Positions 46,549 through 59,944 of a DNA stretch of 64,000 nt are shown here, piece by piece. The stretch's first letter is position 1. The number at the start of each line of letters is the position of its first letter. The position numbers and the translations under genes are program-made. Where the stretch lies: the NCBI RefSeq assembly GCF_900105785.1, contig NZ_LT629799.1, positions 3,100,001 through 3,164,000 on the forward strand, written 5' to 3'. The notes beneath the pieces were generated by a model that was not told the DNA's origin, searched no databases, and worked only from the letters and a program-made list of their open reading frames with translations. Source of the stretch: Microlunatus sagamiharensis. GTDB taxonomy: Bacteria > Actinomycetota > Actinomycetes > Propionibacteriales > Propionibacteriaceae.

Positions 46549-48105
46549 TCACCAGGTCAGCGCGGGGGTGCTGACCGGCGCGTCCCACAGCGCGGTGCGC
46601 CGCTCGTCGAACGGCACGAGCGTGAGCAGCATCCCCGGCTGGTCGAGCGAGGTCACGAGGTCGCCGACCAGGCTGCGGACGACCGTGCGGCCCGCGGCGG
46701 TCAGCACGTCGACCACGTCGGCGTAGGTCGCCTGGAGGTCGAGCAGCGCGGTGCCGCCGAGGCCGGAGAGCAGCACGAGCAGCGGCGCGGCAGGGTCGAC
46801 CTCGGCCAGCAGCGGGTCGCAGAGCGCGTGCGCCAGCGCACTCCCGTGCCGGCGCGGCTCGCGCGGGCGGCCCGGCTCGCCGTGGATGCCGACGCCCTGC
46901 TCCATCTCCTCGCCGCGGAAGGCGATGCCGTAGGACCGGGCGTCGTCGGCCACCGCCTGGCCGAGCGCCCGGCAGGACCCGAGGTCGGCGCCCTCGGCCG
47001 CGAGCGCCCCGGCGAGCTTCTCGACCGCGACGGTGGCGCCGGTGCCGCGCCGGCCCGGGCCGTCGTCGACCGCCGTGGCGACGTCGTCGGCGACCAGCAC
47101 GGTCGCGCTCGTGCCGCCGAGCGACTGCGCGGCGAGCCCGAAGTTGAGCACGTCGCCGGTGTAGGCCTTGACCACGAAGAGGACGCCGGCGCCCTGGTCG
47201 ACCGCCTCGGCAGCGGCCAGCACCTGGGCGCTGGAGGGGGAGGTGAAGACCGCGCCGGGGCAGGCGGCGTCGAGCATGCCTGCGCCGACGAAGCCGGCGT
47301 GCAGCGGTTCGTGGCCGGCGCCGCCGCCGGAGACCAGGACGACCCGGGGCGCACCCTCGGAACCGGCACCCGCGTCGGCGCGCACGACGGCCCGGACCCC
47401 GGGCAGGCGTCGCAGCGACGGGTGGGAGGCGACGAGGCCGGCGACGGCGCGGTCCACGCGGTCGTCCTCGGCGGACCCGGCGTCCTCGCCGGCGGGCTCG
47501 CCGACCCGGTCCAGCAGCGCCTCCCAGGTCGGAGGCTCCCCCGCGACCCAGGCCTCGAGCACGTCGGCCACGGCGACCGCACCGGGGTCCACCGCCCCGA
47601 CCGAGCGCTCGCCGGCGTACGCGCTGCGGCCGCGTCGGGCGGTCAGCCCGGCCGTGGCGTAGGCGGCGCTGCGGGCGGCGGCCACCGCGGCCGTGACGCC
47701 GCCGTCGCGCAGCGCCGTGGCGGCCGGGTGGAGCGCGTCGCGCAGCGTCTTGTCGCCCAGGGCGGCCCCGCCGAGCTCGGCGACCGCCGCGTCCGCGTCG
47801 AGCAGGGCAGCGCTCACCCGATCGGCGTCGGAGTCGTCGGCGAGCCCGTGGCCGTCGAGCCGGACGAGGGCGGCGCCGAGGAGCGCGCCCGACGAACCGC
47901 CGGCGGCCGCGGCGAAGGCGAGGCCCGCCGTACGCAGGCTGTCGGGGCGCGCCCGGACCACGGCGGCGGCGCCGCGGGCGAAGGTGGAACCGAAGTCGCC
48001 GTCGCCGGTCACGGCGTCGAGGGCGTCGTAGGCCTGCCGCCGCTCCAGGGCGACGGCCGCCAGCACGCGGAGCGCGCGGTCGACGCCGTCAGGCAATCCG
48101 GTCAT
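46549..48105 (-). CDS. Dihydroxyacetone kinase, DhaL-DhaK order fusion
   Basis: The 518-residue protein phosphorylates dihydroxyacetone or a related triose. The nucleotide-binding DhaL part comes first: Asp30, Asp35 and Asp37 in DAVTGDGDFG are the Mg-ATP ligands, followed by GGSSGALLGAAL. The DhaK part follows from about residue 230: SGGGAGHEPLHAGFVG, FTSPSSAQVLAA, and His408 in GIHGEPG, which forms the covalent link to substrate. Classical ATP-type enzymes have the reverse order, K then L. ATG at 48105 is the likely start; an in-frame ATG at 48132 would abut tRNA-Tyr. Confidence 0.88.
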   Translation of the reverse strand: MTGLPDGVDRALRVLAAVALERRQAYDALDAVTGDGDFGSTFARGAAAVVRARPDSLRTAGLAFAAAAGGSSGALLGAALVRLDGHGLADDSDADRVSAALLDADAAVAELGGAALGDKTLRDALHPAATALRDGGVTAAVAAARSAAYATAGLTARRGRSAYAGERSVGAVDPGAVAVADVLEAWVAGEPPTWEALLDRVGEPAGEDAGSAEDDRVDRAVAGLVASHPSLRRLPGVRAVVRADAGAGSEGAPRVVLVSGGGAGHEPLHAGFVGAGMLDAACPGAVFTSPSSAQVLAAAEAVDQGAGVLFVVKAYTGDVLNFGLAAQSLGGTSATVLVADDVATAVDDGPGRRGTGATVAVEKLAGALAAEGADLGSCRALGQAVADDARSYGIAFRGEEMEQGVGIHGEPGRPREPRRHGSALAHALCDPLLAEVDPAAPLLVLLSGLGGTALLDLQATYADVVDVLTAAGRTVVRSLVGDLVTSLDQPGMLLTLVPFDERRTALWDAPVSTPALTW

Positions 48106-53601: not shown

Positions 53602-53943
53602 TCAGGCCAGCTCGGCGATCCCGTGGCGCAGGTCCAGCGAACCCTCCGCCGGCGCCGGGTGCGCGTCGTCCCACTCCAGCGCGTCGAACGGGCACTCCTC
53701 GACGCAGATCCCGCAGAACATGCAGGTGCCCCAGTCGATCTCGAAGTGGTCGAGGACGTTGACCGTGCGCGGCCGCGCGCCGGCGGGCACGTCCGGGTCG
53801 GGCTCGGTGTGGGAGTCGAGGGAGATACACCAGACCGGGCACTCGCGGACGCAGAGCATGCACGACGTGCAGGCCGGCTCGATCAGCCGGATCCGCCCGT
53901 GGGCGGGACCGCCGACCGGGACCACCGGCTCGGGCGCGCTCAT
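53602..53943 (-). CDS. NuoI-like 2x[4Fe-4S] ferredoxin subunit
   Basis: The 113-residue protein has two full cluster motifs: Cys25, 28, 31 and 35 in ACTSCMLCVRECP, and Cys74, 77, 80 and 84 in TCMFCGICVEECP. The layout, with the HFEIDWGTCMFC segment, is that of complex I subunit NuoI (HycF in formate hydrogenlyase). It would pass electrons between two 4Fe-4S clusters. ATG at 53943 overlaps the stop of the nuoC-like gene (ATGA). No nuoD, nuoH or other complex I gene is present nearby. Confidence 0.88.
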   Translation of the reverse strand: MSAPEPVVPVGGPAHGRIRLIEPACTSCMLCVRECPVWCISLDSHTEPDPDVPAGARPRTVNVLDHFEIDWGTCMFCGICVEECPFDALEWDDAHPAPAEGSLDLRHGIAELA

Positions 53944-54503
53944 CGGGACCGCCGGCGTACGCGGCCACCGGTCGAGGCCGCGGCGATCTCGGCCGGGTCC
54001 GGGTCCGGGCCGTCGGGGTCGCGGTCGCCCCAGACCTCGGGCGCGGGGACGCCGGGCGGGACGGTCCGCCGACGGCTCGGCGAGGCACCGCCCTCCGTGC
54101 TCTCCCCCGGCTCCTTCGCACCCGGCCACGGGCCGGCCGTCCGCGCGGCGAGGACCTCGTCCTTGCGCAGCGGGGCCTCGACGGACGCGTCGAGCAGCAG
54201 GCGGCGACGGTCCCCGCCGACCACCTCCAGCCCGAACTCCTCCGCCGCCTCCCGCTCGTGCCACGCCGCCCCGGCGAACACGTCGCGGACGCTGTCGACC
54301 CGGGGCTCGGAGCGCGGCACCCGGCACTGCAGCAGGAGCTCGGGGGCGCTCGCGTCGTCGAGCCGGCGTAGCGAGAGCACGACCCGCAGCTCGTCGGCGA
54401 CGCCGATCTCGTCGACGCAGCCCAGCCAGTCGAACCAGCCGTAGCCGTCCTCGCGGGCGGCCAGCACCGCCGCGTGCCAGTCCTGCGCGGCGACGTCCCT
54501 CAT
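53940..54503 (-). CDS. NuoC-like (30-kDa) complex I subunit
   Basis: The 187-residue protein has the NuoC core: WFDWLGCVDE, GAAWHEREAAEEFGLEVVG and, near 120, APLRKDEVLAAR. A Pro/Asp-rich tail of about 55 residues follows and looks disordered. In complex I, NuoC binds NuoD, which is missing here. ATG at 54503 overlaps the end of the nuoB-like gene. It lies between nuoB-like and nuoI-like genes in one operon. Confidence 0.85.
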   Translation of the reverse strand: MRDVAAQDWHAAVLAAREDGYGWFDWLGCVDEIGVADELRVVLSLRRLDDASAPELLLQCRVPRSEPRVDSVRDVFAGAAWHEREAAEEFGLEVVGGDRRRLLLDASVEAPLRKDEVLAARTAGPWPGAKEPGESTEGGASPSRRRTVPPGVPAPEVWGDRDPDGPDPDPAEIAAASTGGRVRRRSR

Positions 54504-54919
54504 GCCGTGGCTCCGCGCGCGGTCCGGCCACTCACGCCGTCGAGGACCTCGCGCAGCGCCGCCGGGGTCGGCGGGCAGCCGGGCACGTAGACGTCGACCC
54601 CCACCAGCGCGTCGACGCCCTTGGTCACGGCGTAGGAGTCCCAGTAGGGCCCGCCGGTGGTGGCGCAGACCCCGTACGCGACCACGACCGGGGCAACGGT
54701 CTGACGGGCCCGGACGCTGTCCACGACCGCGGCGACGGCGGGCGCGAGCCGGTCGGTGACCGTGCCGGAGACGACGACGGCGGTGCGGCCGTCCGTGGGC
54801 GGCTCGACGGCCGGGCCGGCCGTGGCGGGCGCGGCCGCGTCGAACTCGAGCGAGCAGCAGGCCAGGGCCACGTCGAGCACGTGCAGGGAGGAGTCCCCGT
54901 ACCAGTCGACCCAGCGCAC
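54500..54919 (-). CDS. NuoB-like (PSST) complex I subunit, short form
   Basis: The 139-residue protein keeps all four ligands of the N2-type [4Fe-4S] cluster: Cys21 and Cys22 in LACCSLE, Cys85 in YGVCATTGG and Cys115 in VYVPGCPPTP. Complex I NuoB is about 160-220 residues, so this is a short version. GTG at 54919 lies 6 bases after TAGCGT, so it is the leaderless first gene of the trio. The operon is divergent from korAB across about 270 bases. Confidence 0.87.
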   Translation of the reverse strand: MRWVDWYGDSSLHVLDVALACCSLEFDAAAPATAGPAVEPPTDGRTAVVVSGTVTDRLAPAVAAVVDSVRARQTVAPVVVAYGVCATTGGPYWDSYAVTKGVDALVGVDVYVPGCPPTPAALREVLDGVSGRTARGATA

Positions 54920-54925
54920 GGCGCC

Positions 54926-54931
54926 ACGCTA
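54926..54931 (-). promoter_or_regulatory. Leaderless -10 box for the nuoBCI-like operon
   Basis: Minus-strand TAGCGT is followed by 6 bases and GTG at 54919. Confidence 0.5.
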
Positions 54932-55191
54932 CGTGACCCCACCCGCGGCGGTCGCGCCCACGAGGGCCTCGTGTGACCTTGGCTGCACCGGGCTCTCAGC
55001 GGGCGAACGCCCCTGGTGAGCGGTTAGGGCGCCCTTATCATGGACGACGGTCCATCGCCAGGAACCAGACCTGCCCCAGCGGTCCGGACGACGGCCCCGA
55101 GACGGAACTCACCGTCTCTCGGGAGTCCGAGGGCCGCACGCGCTCCGAACCCTGGCCCGACGACCGCTACGAGGAAGAGAGCACCTGCTCC

Positions 55192-57105
55192 ATGACTGAG
55201 GTCCGCACGCTCGACCGGGTGGTGATCCGTTTCGCGGGTGACTCCGGTGACGGCATGCAGCTCACCGGTGACCGCTTCACCGCCGACTCGGCGACGTTCG
55301 GCAACGACATCTCGACGCTGCCGAACTTCCCCGCCGAGATCCGCGCGCCTGCGGGCACGCTGCCCGGGGTGTCGAGCTTCCAGCTCCACTTCGCCAACTA
55401 CGACATCATGACCCCGGGCGACCGGCCCGACGTGTTGGTGGCGATGAACCCGGCCGCGCTCAAGGCCAACATCGCCGACCTGCCCCGCGGCGGGCTGATC
55501 ATCGCCGACACCGCGGACTTCACCACCCGCAACCTGGCCAAGGTCGGCTACGCGGCCAACCCGCTCGAGGACGGGTCGCTGGGCGACTACCAGCTGCACG
55601 CCCTCGACCTGACCGGCATGACCGTCGCGGCGGTCAAGGACTTCGGGCTGTCGCGCAAGGACGCCTCGCGGGCGAAGAACATGTTCTCGCTCGGGTTGTT
55701 GTCGTGGCTCTACCACCGCCCGACCGAGGGCACGATCAGCTTCCTGTCGACCAAGTTCGCGAACAAGCCCGCGATCCGCGACGCCAACATCACCGCGTTC
55801 AAGACCGGCTACGCGTTCGGTGAGACCACCGAGGTCTTCGCGGTCTCCTACGAGGTCGCGCCGGCCCCGATGCCGTCGGGGCGCTACCGCCAGATCAACG
55901 GCAACCTCGCCCTGGCGCTCGGTCTCGTGGCCGCGGCGCGCAAGGCGGACCTGCCGATGTTCCTCGGCAGCTACCCGATCACCCCGGCGTCCGACATCCT
56001 CCACGAGCTGAGCAAGCACAAGCGCTTCGGGATCACGACCTTCCAGGCCGAGGACGAGATCGCCGGGGTCGGTGCTGCGCTGGGCGCGAGCTTCGCCGGC
56101 CACATCGGCGTCACCACGACGTCCGGGCCGGGGATGGCGCTCAAGGCCGAGACGATCGGGCTCGGGGTGATGACCGAGCTGCCGCTGGTGGTCATCGACG
56201 TGCAGCGCGCCGGCCCGAGCACGGGCATGCCGACCAAGACCGAGCAGGCCGACCTGCTGCAGGTCATGTACGGGCGCAACGGCGAGTCCCCGGTCCCGGT
56301 GATCGCCGCCTCCACGCCGTCGGACTGCTTCGCCACCGCGATCGAGGCCGTGCGGATCGCGGTCAAGTACCGCACCCCGGTCGTCGTGCTCTCCGACGGC
56401 TACATCGCCAACGGCGCCGAGCCGTGGCAGGTCCCCGACGTCGCCGCGATCCCGGCGATCGACCCCGGCTTCGCCACCGAGGCCAACGCCACCGACGCCA
56501 AGGGCGAGCCGCTGTTCCTGCCCTACCGCCGCGACCCCGAGACCCTCGCGCGCCCCTGGGCGATCCCCGGCACCGCCGGCCTGCAGCACCGCATCGGCGG
56601 GATCGAGAAGGCCCGCGACACCGGCGCCGTCTCCTACGACCCCGCCAACCACGACGAGATGGTCCGCACCCGCCAGGCCAAGATCGACGGCATCGTCCAA
56701 GACATCCCCGACCTCGTCGTCGACGACCCGACCGCCCCCGACGGCAGCCAGGCCCGCACCCTCGTGCTCGGGTGGGGCTCGACGTACGGGCCGATCGCGG
56801 CGGCCGTGCGGCGTGTGCGGAACACCGGCCGGCAGGTCGCGCAGGCCCACCTGCGCCACCTGAACCCGTTCCCGGCCAACCTCGGGGAGGTGCTGCGTTC
56901 CTACGACCGCGTCATCGTCCCCGAGATGAACCTCGGCCAGCTCGCCCTGCTGCTGCGCGGCAAGTACCTGGTCGACGTCCACAGCTACTCCCGGGTGCGC
57001 GGGCTCCCGATCTCGCTCAGCGAGCTCGCCCGTGACCTGGAGCTCGAGATCGACGCCCTTCCCGACGTCGAGGAGAGCCCCCTGAAGGAAGGTGCGTTCG
57101 CATGA
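55192..57105 (+). CDS. korA: 2-oxoglutarate:ferredoxin oxidoreductase alpha subunit KorA
   Basis: The 637-residue protein fuses the gamma domain (VIRFAGDSGDGMQLTGDRF near residue 10) to the alpha domain (LGSYPITPASDILHELSKH, TTSGPGMALKAETIGLG, QRAGPSTGMPTKTEQADL), the usual layout of actinobacterial KorA. With KorB it decarboxylates 2-oxoglutarate to succinyl-CoA and reduces ferredoxin without needing lipoate. ATG at 55192; the ribosome-binding site is loose (GGAAGAGAG). A TATCAT hexamer at 55036-55041 may be the -10 box. It overlaps korB (ATGA). Confidence 0.95.
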   Translation: MTEVRTLDRVVIRFAGDSGDGMQLTGDRFTADSATFGNDISTLPNFPAEIRAPAGTLPGVSSFQLHFANYDIMTPGDRPDVLVAMNPAALKANIADLPRGGLIIADTADFTTRNLAKVGYAANPLEDGSLGDYQLHALDLTGMTVAAVKDFGLSRKDASRAKNMFSLGLLSWLYHRPTEGTISFLSTKFANKPAIRDANITAFKTGYAFGETTEVFAVSYEVAPAPMPSGRYRQINGNLALALGLVAAARKADLPMFLGSYPITPASDILHELSKHKRFGITTFQAEDEIAGVGAALGASFAGHIGVTTTSGPGMALKAETIGLGVMTELPLVVIDVQRAGPSTGMPTKTEQADLLQVMYGRNGESPVPVIAASTPSDCFATAIEAVRIAVKYRTPVVVLSDGYIANGAEPWQVPDVAAIPAIDPGFATEANATDAKGEPLFLPYRRDPETLARPWAIPGTAGLQHRIGGIEKARDTGAVSYDPANHDEMVRTRQAKIDGIVQDIPDLVVDDPTAPDGSQARTLVLGWGSTYGPIAAAVRRVRNTGRQVAQAHLRHLNPFPANLGEVLRSYDRVIVPEMNLGQLALLLRGKYLVDVHSYSRVRGLPISLSELARDLELEIDALPDVEESPLKEGAFA

Positions 57106-58190
57106 CCGCTCTCGACCAGCCCACCCACCGCGTCGTGGAGACCGGCGGCCTCGCCGGCGTCCCGCTGTCGCTGGAGCCGCTGACCCGCAAGGACTTCACC
57201 TCCGACCAGGAGGTGCGCTGGTGCCCCGGGTGCGGCGACTACGCCGTGCTCGCCGCCTTCCAGGGCTTCATGCCGGACCTCGGCATCAAGAAGGAGAACA
57301 CGGTCATCGTCTCGGGCATCGGCTGCTCCAGCCGCTTCCCGTACTACGTCGACTCCTTCGGCATGCACTCGATCCACGGGCGCGCGACGGCGATCGCGAC
57401 CGGCGTGGCGACGGCGCGGCCCGACACCGCGGTGTTCGTGATCACCGGTGACGGCGACGCGCTGTCGATCGGCGGCAACCACCTGATCCACGCGCTGCGG
57501 CGCAACGTGAACGTGACGATCCTGCTGTTCAACAACCGGATCTACGGCCTGACCAAGGGCCAGTACTCCCCGACCTCCGAGATCGGCAAGGTCACCAAGT
57601 CGACGCCGCTCGGCTCGCTGGACAACCCGTTCAACCCGGTGTCGCTGGCGCTGGGCGCGGAGGCGACGTTCGTCGCGCGGACCATCGACTCCGACCGCAA
57701 GCACCTCACGTCGGTGCTCAAGGCGGCGGCGGCCCATCGCGGCACGTCGTTCGTGGAGATCTACCAGAACTGCCCGATCTTCAACGACGACGCCTTCGCC
57801 GCCGTCAAGGACCGCGACACCTCGGCCGACGCGATCATCCCGCTGACCCACGGCGAGCCGATCCGCTTCGGCGTGGACAGCCGCCTCGGCGTCGTCCGCG
57901 ACCCGCGGACCGGCGAGTTCTCGGTCGTCGACGTCGAGTCGGTCGGGGTCGACGCCCTGGTCGTGCACGACGCGCACATCTCCGACCCCTCGTACGCCTT
58001 CGGCCTCTCGCGGCTGACCGACGCCGGTGTCCTGCACCGCGCGCCGATCGGGATCTTCCGCGAGGTCGAGGCGCCCGCGTACGACGACCTCGCCCGCGAG
58101 CAGGTCGCGCTGGCCACGGCCGGTCGCAGCAACGACGACGCGGCCCTGCAGGACCTCGTCAACGGCGGCGACACCTGGGTCGTCGACTGA
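57102..58190 (+). CDS. korB: 2-oxoglutarate:ferredoxin oxidoreductase beta subunit KorB
   Basis: The 362-residue protein binds thiamine diphosphate and one [4Fe-4S] cluster. Motifs are WCPGCGDYAVLAAFQ, GIGCSSRFPYYVDSFGMHS, the TPP loop ITGDGDALSIGGNHLIHA and NNRIYGLTKGQYSPTS. ATG at 57102 overlaps the korA stop codon and AAGGAAGG lies just upstream. In mycobacteria KorAB supports an oxoglutarate-dehydrogenase-independent cycle. Its end lies near a long palindrome shared with the convergent sigma factor gene. Confidence 0.96.
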   Translation: MTALDQPTHRVVETGGLAGVPLSLEPLTRKDFTSDQEVRWCPGCGDYAVLAAFQGFMPDLGIKKENTVIVSGIGCSSRFPYYVDSFGMHSIHGRATAIATGVATARPDTAVFVITGDGDALSIGGNHLIHALRRNVNVTILLFNNRIYGLTKGQYSPTSEIGKVTKSTPLGSLDNPFNPVSLALGAEATFVARTIDSDRKHLTSVLKAAAAHRGTSFVEIYQNCPIFNDDAFAAVKDRDTSADAIIPLTHGEPIRFGVDSRLGVVRDPRTGEFSVVDVESVGVDALVVHDAHISDPSYAFGLSRLTDAGVLHRAPIGIFREVEAPAYDDLAREQVALATAGRSNDDAALQDLVNGGDTWVVD

Positions 58191-58221: not shown

Positions 58222-58284
58222 CGCCGAGCGGTAGGTTGCCGCGCCTTTTCCACCGGAAAAGGCGCCGCAACCTACCGCTCGGCG
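58222..58284. terminator. 30-bp-arm palindrome between korB and sigma factor gene
   Basis: Arms 58222-58251 and 58255-58284 match at 29 of 30 positions with a 3-base loop. The right arm contains the stop codon of the sigma factor gene. On each strand CCTTTTCC precedes or follows the loop. It is placed as a bidirectional terminator. Confidence 0.75.
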
Positions 58285-59543
58285 TCGTTCGGGGGGTCCA
58301 GTCGGGCGAGCCGGGCGTTCAGGTAGCGCTGCTCGGGGATGCTCGCGGTCATCCGGGCAGCGGTCGCGTACGCCTCGCGGGCCTCGTCGAGGCGTCCGGC
58401 CCGCTCGAGCAGGTGGGCCCGGACCGCGTACGTGCGGTGGTGGCGGCTCATCGTCCGGTCAGCCAGCAGCGGCTCGAGGACCTCGAGGCCCTGCTCGGCG
58501 CCGTACGCCTCGGCGACGGCCACGGCGCGGTTCAGGGTGACGGCCGGGCCCGGCGCCCGCTCGGCGAGCATCGCGTAGAGCAGCGCGACCTGGCGCCAGT
58601 CGGTCGCCTCCGTGCTCGGCGCCTCGGCGTGCACCGCCGCGATCGCCGCCTCCAGCTGGAACCGCCCCACGTGGCCGCGCGGGAGGACCTCCTCCAGCAG
58701 GGCCACGCCCTCGGCGACCATCGCGGCGTCCCAGCGCGAGCGGTCCTGCTCGGCGAGCGGGACCAGGTCGCCCGCCGCGTCCACCCGGGTCGCCTCGCGC
58801 GCCGACGTCAGCAGCATCAGCGCGAGCAGCCCGGCGGCCTCGTCGTGGTCGGGCAGCGCCGCCCGCAGCCCGCGCGCCAGCCGGACGGCCTCGGCGGTGA
58901 GCGAGACGTCGACCACCGCCGGGCCGGCGCTGGCGGCGTAGCCCTCGGTGAACACCAGGTGCAGCACGTCGAGGCAGGCGGAGACCCGGGCCGGCAGCTC
59001 CTCGGGCGGCACCGCGACGAACCGCGCCCCCGCCGTCCGCAGGGTCGCCCGCGCCCGGCTCAGGCGCTGCGCCATCGTCGCCTCGGGCACGAGGAAGGCC
59101 GCGGCGACCTGCGCCGTGCTCAGTCCCGCCACCGCGCGCAGGGTGAGCGCGACCTGCGACGCCGGCGGCAGGGCCGGGTGGCAGCACAGCAGGAGCAGCC
59201 GGAGGCTGTCGTCGACCTCGCCGACGCCCTGCTCGTCCGCCGCCGGCGCCCGCAGGTGCTCCTCGGGCTCCCGCGCGGCGAGGGCCGTCTCCCGGGCCGC
59301 ACGGGCGCGTTCGGCCCGCACCTGGTCGACGAGCCGCCGCGACGCGACCGTCACGAGCCAGCCCCGCGGGTGGTCGGGCACCCCGTCGCGCGGCCACTGC
59401 ACGGCCGCGGCGGCGAGCGCCTCCTGGGCCGCGTCCTCGCAGTCGGCGAGGTCGCCGTGGCGGCGCAGGAGCGCGGCGAGGACGTGCGGCGACTCCCGCC
59501 GCCACACGTCCTCGAGCGACGCGTCGAGCGGCCCCTCGGTCAT
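58272..59543 (-). CDS. ECF sigma factor with long C-terminal extension (ECF42-like)
   Basis: The 423-residue protein has region 2 (LADCEDAAQEALAAAAVQWP, GWLVTVASRRLVDQVR) and region 4 (AGLSTAQVAAAFLVPEATMAQRLSRA), then about 230 residues with helical TPR-like repeats (LYAMLAERAPGPAVTLNRAVAVAEAYG). This is the architecture of the ECF42 group, which is normally encoded beside a DGPF-domain protein, as here. No anti-sigma factor is present. ATG at 59543 is 8 bases after the DGPF stop codon. Confidence 0.9.
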   Translation of the reverse strand: MTEGPLDASLEDVWRRESPHVLAALLRRHGDLADCEDAAQEALAAAAVQWPRDGVPDHPRGWLVTVASRRLVDQVRAERARAARETALAAREPEEHLRAPAADEQGVGEVDDSLRLLLLCCHPALPPASQVALTLRAVAGLSTAQVAAAFLVPEATMAQRLSRARATLRTAGARFVAVPPEELPARVSACLDVLHLVFTEGYAASAGPAVVDVSLTAEAVRLARGLRAALPDHDEAAGLLALMLLTSAREATRVDAAGDLVPLAEQDRSRWDAAMVAEGVALLEEVLPRGHVGRFQLEAAIAAVHAEAPSTEATDWRQVALLYAMLAERAPGPAVTLNRAVAVAEAYGAEQGLEVLEPLLADRTMSRHHRTYAVRAHLLERAGRLDEAREAYATAARMTASIPEQRYLNARLARLDPPNDAER

Positions 59544-59551
59544 CGGCGTGC

Positions 59552-59944
59552 TCAGGCCTCCTCGGCGCTTCCGCTCATGGTCGGCCTCAGCTCGACGGTC
59601 TCGCCCGGGCCGCTGAAGTGCCGCACGACCTCCTCGGCGCGCTCCTGGCTCTCGACGTCGATGAGGAAGAAGCCGGCGAGGTGCTCCTTCGCCTCCGCGT
59701 ACGGGCCGTCCGTGACGACCGGCGCACCGGCCTCCCAGCGGTAGAGCCGGGCGCTGCGCGGGTCGGCCAACGCCTCGCCGCCGACCAGCTCGCCGCGCTC
59801 GGACAGCTCGGTCAGGGCGGCCTCGAAGGCCGCCTGGTTGCGCCGGCGCTCCTCGTCGGGCAGGGCGCGCTGCTCGGCGATGTAGTCACCGGTCGGGTGA
59901 CCCCACGGCCGGGGGTCGGAGTGGATGAGGACGACGTACTTCAC
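59552..59944 (-). CDS. DGPF/YCII-domain protein linked to ECF42 sigma factor
   Basis: The 130-residue protein starts MKYVVLIHSDP and has VTDGPYAEAKEHLAGFFLID, the DGPF motif of YCII-related proteins. Genes of this type accompany ECF42 sigma factors and may be sensors or targets. GTG at 59944 is chosen, with GGGAAG upstream; a longer frame would extend to 60022. The sigma gene follows directly and is probably cotranscribed. Confidence 0.88.
   Translation of the reverse strand: MKYVVLIHSDPRPWGHPTGDYIAEQRALPDEERRRNQAAFEAALTELSERGELVGGEALADPRSARLYRWEAGAPVVTDGPYAEAKEHLAGFFLIDVESQERAEEVVRHFSGPGETVELRPTMSGSAEEA

Follow-up and report, generated by a model that had tools for sequence, protein, structure and literature searches.

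The window analyzed here is a stretch of 64,000 nucleotides (C1:3100001-3164000) from the single-contig, 4.405-Mb genome of Microlunatus sagamiharensis. On its minus strand lie three overlapping genes, all intact open reading frames, whose products are homologs of complex I subunits: nuoB' (54919-54500; 139 aa, GTG start), encoding an N2-cluster subunit with a Pfam Oxidored_q6 match of 59 bits; nuoC' (54503-53940; 187 aa), encoding a homolog of the 30-kDa subunit (Pfam Complex1_30kDa, 67.8 bits); and nuoI' (53943-53602; 113 aa), encoding a protein with two 4Fe-4S motifs and Fer4 domains above the Pfam cut-off. The best NCBIfam matches of this trio (NuoB, 87 bits; NuoC, 42 bits; NuoI, 54 bits) are all under the curated cut-offs, and the three proteins are therefore divergent members of their families. 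NuoB' has the fold and the four cysteine ligands of the N2-cluster subunit (Cys21, 22, 85, and 115), and NuoI' carries both of its CxxCxxCxxxC motifs, as described in an initial annotation made from this DNA alone. That annotation also gave NuoC' a disordered tail, which needs qualification in that part of the tail consists of the motif WPG..EP...RR..PPGV, found also in relatives and shared with NuoC2 of the nuo2 clusters considered below. Divergent from the trio, 272 bp away on the plus strand, are korA (55192-57105), for the alpha subunit of a 2-oxoacid:acceptor oxidoreductase (TIGR03710, 655 bits, above the cut-off), and korB (57102-58190), for the beta subunit of a 2-oxoacid:ferredoxin oxidoreductase (TPP_enzyme_C, 111 bits; PRK11866, 260 bits, and TIGR02177, 253 bits, both under curated cut-offs). 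No nuoD, nuoE, nuoF, nuoG, or membrane subunit gene adjoins the trio, again in agreement with the initial annotation; with B, C, and I only, the locus does not encode a 14-subunit respiratory complex I (NuoA-N, including EFG and AHJKLMN). Elsewhere in the window, an ECF-type sigma factor with DUF6596 is followed on the same strand by a small protein (58272-59944), presumably a YCII/DGPF-type partner, and the protein encoded at 46549-48105 reads, judged from its sequence alone, like a DhaL-DhaK fusion (dihydroxyacetone kinase).

A complete main nuoA-N operon is located ~18 kb beyond the trio, outside the window. Two NuoB matches are present in the whole genome, one from the main operon and one from the trio, and a search for a second NuoH in this genome returned only that of the main operon, in keeping with the view of the trio as part of a module without membrane subunits. 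A second membrane arm elsewhere in the genome was considered and rejected, given the one NuoH and the absence of a second NuoL/M/N set; the PF00361 proteins are three in the main operon and two at 648-653 kb, which, from position and pairing, look like an Mrp-type antiporter. The trio had been taken for an orphan lacking NuoD, and a nuoD gene in trans had been named beforehand as evidence against that idea. Such a gene is present: a PF00346 search of the genome recovers a second NuoD, D' (C1:4289259-4290425, minus strand, equivalent to L006:9760-10926; 388 aa, intact; 157.8 bits), 1.1 Mb from the trio. D' can be aligned over its full length with Nqo4 of Thermus, and it has no NiFe site of the kind found in group 4 NiFe hydrogenases (two CxxC pairs), because it contains only two cysteines in total and no CxxC. 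Directly upstream of it on the same strand (L006:10952-12046, start uncertain) is a gene for a methyltransferase with the NDUFAF7/MidA domain (Methyltransf_28, 56.5 bits against a cut-off of 23.3) and a weak match to the DUF185 structure 1zkd. The NuoD-type subunit of the trio is D', encoded in trans beside this NDUFAF7/MidA-family gene: its co-occurrence, tree, and rates all track the trio, and the orphan description no longer holds.

The co-occurrence was established by searching the same 197 Actinomycetes genomes with B', D', NuoH2, korA, and PF02636. Counts for all of these but korA are among the matches listed, and B' below ~60 bits can be missed. Scores are bimodal, with B' mostly above 70 bits versus ~60 for canonical NuoB, and full-length D' above 200 versus below 140 for canonical NuoD; one short frame at 62.6 bits (G116) was counted as B', and the D' count includes fragments from G097 and G023. 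Among the matches listed, B' is present in 86 and D' in 87 of the 197 genomes; 82 genomes have both, four have B' alone, five have D' alone, and 106 have neither. The Fisher values for co-occurrence take no account of shared ancestry. None of the 14 sampled genomes that belong to the same order as the window but to other families has B' or D'. PF02636 occurs in 79 of the 197 genomes, 75 of them with D', and in 77 of the 91 genomes with B' or D' versus two of the 106 without either (among the matches listed). Since a canonical NuoD or other NuoD-type match is found in 188 of the 197 genomes, the methyltransferase follows D' and not NuoD in general. Distances between the methyltransferase and D' are available for 74 of the 79 genomes (67 with both on the same contig, seven with the two on different contigs) and are <8 kb in 66 of the 67 same-contig genomes and <1 kb in 30.

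We typed 43 B' loci, of which eight have a membrane arm (nuo2, with at least NuoH2), three are partly decayed, and 32, including the window, are trio-only. The arrangement in the window is more than chance because it recurs in 31 of the 42 relatives with the locus examined, and the 32 trio-only loci span 12 family codes. NuoH2 at 250 bits or more is found in 52 of the 197 genomes (among the matches listed) and is absent from the trio-only genomes. The partly decayed nuo2 loci are L052, L053, and L054. In L052, nuoH2 survives as three frame-broken pieces (L052:10923-11291) with B2, C2, and I2 still present; this locus is a snapshot of ongoing membrane-arm loss, separate from the trio-only clade. 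The position of the locus is kept: many relatives have korAB and the main nuo operon to one side of it, and genes of the YajQ/DUF520, M48 peptidase, or rpmG-like kinds, where recognizable, flank it on the opposite side (the neighbor names rpmG and murB are our assumption from gene length and order). The possibility that the locus includes one more conserved partner was also considered and rejected: the divergent 574-626 aa genes in families f15 and f29 encode AtuA-type and beta-helix proteins and are unrelated, and in the single locus tested from each family, the gene after nuoI' encodes CorA (f15) or an M48 peptidase (f29). Among at least 80 named loci, most of those that can be typed are full clusters, chiefly from Streptomyces, and at least four are trio-only; among the matches listed, these are Actinosynnema pretiosum (L227), which also carries D' (304 bits) and korAB, a Nanopelagicales MAG (L221), and the MAGs L202 and L233.

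Phylogenies place the module within nuo2. In a tree of D' (64 rows and one canonical sequence), all 31 trio-only rows form one clade within full nuo2 (SH-aLRT 98), and in a tree of B'C'I' (43 rows and canonical sequences), all 32 do so (SH-aLRT 98). Both trees are quick searches with no bootstrap, and the long branches in their trio-only part, a sign of relaxed constraint, carry a risk of tree error; the short-branch members f15 and f29 also fall inside the trio-only clade. The alignments represent 64 of the 87 D' genomes and 43 of the 86 B' genomes, with three partly decayed nuo2 genomes (G030, G161, and G016) and one at a contig edge (G070) set aside as intermediate. Because the trio-only clade appears in both trees, the D' gene, although far from the trio, carries the trio's history. 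Pairwise distances across 18 genomes point the same way: those of B'C'I' correlate with those of D' at 0.88, but with those of the neighboring korA at only 0.45, and the B'C'I'-D' correlation is 0.85 with korA partialled out (0 of 2000 permutations as high, in a test that ignores shared ancestry).

By the shared ancestry of its B, C, I, and D subunits, then, the module belongs to nuo2, and by possession of a NuoH2-bearing membrane arm the window genome does not. The ancestor of the module is the Streptomyces-type nuo2, a complex I that lacks NuoEFG and sits next to korAB; in one lineage the entire membrane arm and the docking residues disappeared, while the ligands of three 4Fe-4S clusters remained. 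An origin as recent decayed duplicates of a complete nuo operon, which the initial annotation had set against its own proposal, is rejected: a complete operon does exist, but the trio groups with nuo2, a separate paralogous complex. In Acidimicrobiia-type MAGs, D lies within an A-B-C-D-H-I-J-K-L-M cluster, and in an Egibacteraceae MAG (L185) a D'-like D is inside the cluster with a MidA match beside it, which suggests that D within the cluster and next to MidA is the ancestral layout.

The losses in the trio-only clade bear on a first alternative, namely that B'C'D'I' serves as a set of alternative subunits for canonical complex I, docking on the main NuoH and membrane arm to make a ferredoxin-fed pump. 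The main operon is only 18 kb away, and a 16-30 kb linkage is seen in several relatives with both on one contig. However, the docking segment, the NuoB loop motif, and the membrane-facing NuoD residues are exactly what the trio-only forms have lost. The end of the NuoI docking segment, YP[DE]..P.L, is present in seven of seven full and two of two intermediate forms but in none of 31 trio-only forms (these rows are without G011, whose nuoI is present at the locus), and among solved chains the alignment to Thermus Nqo9 starts at residue 51 with the window NuoI' but at residue 5 with NuoI2 of nuo2. The NuoB loop motif RxD[FL]xR is in 8/8 full, 3/3 intermediate, and 0/32 trio-only forms. In D', the membrane-facing Phe148 is found in all 29 full and none of the 31 trio-only rows; Phe151 and Tyr141 each persist in one trio-only row and Met136 in seven, against 29 of 29 full rows in every case. 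Since full nuo2 genomes moreover own NuoH2, we regard docking on the canonical arm as quite unlikely. Two Chloroflexota loci with B, fused CD, and I and no membrane genes (L228 and L230) were rejected as a parallel case; they look like split ordinary operons because the docking segment, HPSTHG, and RLDY are retained.

What was kept is equally consistent across the clade. All four NuoB cysteines are present in 32 of 32 trio-only forms, and the eight NuoI ligand cysteines are present in all 40 nuo2/trio rows. A ninth cysteine, Cys39 of NuoI' (window 53827 region), four residues past the last ligand of the first cluster motif (CPxxC), is likewise found in 40/40 nuo2/trio NuoI rows and is Ala in the canonical NuoI of the same genome. 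That these genes are a relic, the functionless leftovers of a dying nuo2, would fit the long branches in the trio-only part and the true decay seen elsewhere, with nuoH2 in three broken pieces in L052; against it are one ancient clade spanning 12 family codes, ligand cysteines retained in 32/32 B' and all NuoI' rows, and the retention of D' in trans, and we consider it very improbable.

The quinone site of D' is altered in a different pattern. The tyrosine at Tyr87 (Nqo4 numbering) is replaced by Trp in 64/64 NuoD2/D' rows, and a Met of the site is His in 63/64. These residues belong to a family-specific RHDW pocket, in which Arg69 and Trp92 are present in 64/64 rows each and His90 in 63/64. 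Full nuo2 has the Trp as well, so this residue does not set the soluble form apart, and from its sequence nuo2, too, may be something other than an ordinary menaquinone reductase. At the position of Nqo4 His38, 26 of 31 trio-only D' sequences retain the histidine; D' of the window genome has Thr43 there and Trp92 at the tyrosine position, and so has neither hallmark of a quinone-reducing NuoD (His38 and Tyr87). Retention of the histidine in most of the clade speaks, at the level of sequence, against a simple reading in which the quinone site was destroyed, and together with the first His of the HP[SA]THG loop, present in 30/31 trio-only rows, it would suit a nonpumping, peripherally membrane-bound menaquinone reductase that kept quinone chemistry and lost ion pumping. 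Yet the full loop motif is found in only two of 31 trio-only rows versus 29 of 29 full rows, the tyrosine is replaced in every row, the docking segment is gone, and the window genome has Thr at the His38 position; we judge such a reductase improbable.

The pocket also offers a role for the methyltransferase. Mitochondrial NDUFAF7 dimethylates Arg85 of NDUFS2, ~7 A from N2, and Thermus has Thr64 at this position (PMC3829151, PMC3750175). Arg69 of D' aligns with NDUFS2 Arg85, as placed by the human and bovine sequence context in these two reports, and is Arg in 64/64 D' rows. With Arg at this position in D' and Thr in the canonical NuoD of the same genome, the methyltransferase family, D', and the likely target go together, and by analogy with NDUFAF7 and NDUFS2, the N2-adjacent Arg69 of D' is probably dimethylated by MidA. 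The family is undetected in 14 of 91 module genomes, and therefore methylation cannot be essential everywhere.

The initial annotation had the trio accept electrons from KorAB or its ferredoxin, and had proposed looking for conservation of the trio near korAB. Such conservation exists, as korA is <3 kb from the trio in 19 of the 32 trio-only loci. A module dedicated to KorAB, in which B'C'I' as a whole, or NuoI' by itself in place of the ferredoxin-like KorD subunit, draws electrons directly from KorAB and works as part of that enzyme, could explain this proximity, the divergent korAB in the window, and its presence at many full nuo2 clusters, and NuoI' has a weak PorD_KorD match. That match (TIGR02179) is 35.7 bits against a cut-off of 60.05, so that NuoI' is not assigned as a KorD/PorD ferredoxin subunit. 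Further, an intact korA is missing from seven of the 32 genomes with the trio only, all of them with a completeness of 96-99%: five have no match (G065, G116, G127, G167, and G186, three of these inferred from absence among the 158 matches listed), one has a match only at E 1e-4 (G137), and one has remnants (G194). In the last of these, pieces of korB and korA lie at L063:8638-8996 beside an intact trio. The five f15 trio loci have korA on a separate contig, many genomes with korA have no module, and the trio's rates follow D' and not korA. KorAB as an obligate partner is thus rejected, and the dedicated module is unlikely; KorAB is a frequent, conserved divergent neighbor of the trio. Of the earlier proposal, a ferredoxin donor remains likely and direct dependence on KorAB is not supported.

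The reading we prefer, and think fairly probable, is that the trio makes up three quarters of a soluble, ferredoxin-fed B'C'D'I' oxidoreductase derived from nuo2 and acting at N2. Its parts differ in strength. That the four proteins form one complex is very probable from their sequences, and that this complex would not be membrane-integral is equally so; a ferredoxin-type electron donor is likely; and a nonquinone substrate at N2 is a tentative suggestion, its chances somewhat short of even. In the proposed mechanism, B', C', D', and I' would come together in a soluble complex; NuoI' would be fed by ferredoxin reduced by KorAB, or by other enzymes in genomes without it; electrons would run N6a -> N6b -> N2; and at the B'-D' interface a pocket with Arg69 and His90-Asp91-Trp92 of D' would reduce a substrate other than an ordinary quinone, or work in reverse. 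Such a substrate could be water-soluble or loosely membrane-held. Precedent comes from MBS, in which ferredoxin electrons pass over three clusters and, with neither His38 nor Tyr87 present, polysulfide is reduced at the proximal cluster (PMC7684303). Because of this precedent, together with three clusters, a NuoD partner, and no pump, we favor a soluble ferredoxin-linked oxidoreductase.

Complex I is usually read as a redox arm plus a pump. A form that has lost the pump and its docking and kept three clusters, NuoD, and (mostly) the methyltransferase separates what N2 electron transfer needs from what coupling needs. It offers a compact and possibly soluble system in which to study the N2/NuoD site and to test what the arginine methylation by NDUFAF7 does, and it provides a first entry point to Streptomyces nuo2.

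Full nuo2 is already in print: its function in Streptomyces is called "unclear" (PMC9239103) and nuoD2 is known to lie apart from it (PMC8388888). The former states that nuo2 is without NuoC and NuoL; we find C2 and L2 homologs in those named Streptomyces clusters that reach that far (e.g., L163). A search of the open full-text literature returned no description of a nuo2 form without a membrane arm or of a methyltransferase link to nuo2/D', which suggests that the reduced, membrane-less form is undescribed, as the initial annotation had supposed of the arrangement. The closest known system is nuo2/nuoD2 of Streptomyces (SCO4599-SCO4608; S. ambofaciens), with the same B, C, I, and D subfamilies, a site by korAB, and a separate D; however, nuo2 owns NuoA, H, and J-N and intact docking parts, all missing from the window form. 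The NuoEFG-less complex I of Desulfitobacterium hafniense is similar in lacking NuoEFG and in using a donor other than NADH, with ferredoxin proposed (PMC11238625), but it has its membrane arm and nuoD in one operon and keeps the quinone site. The Pyrococcus furiosus sulfane sulfur reductase MBS shares three 4Fe-4S clusters, a ferredoxin donor, the absence of a NiFe site, and catalysis at the proximal cluster (PMC7684303); unlike the window form, it is membrane-integral and ion-pumping, with a different cysteine arrangement at the proximal cluster. Finally, NDUFAF7/MidA and NDUFS2 of mitochondrial complex I resemble the present pair in the PF02636 family and in the arginine at the Arg85 position of the NuoD-type partner, whereas here the methyltransferase goes with the second NuoD only.
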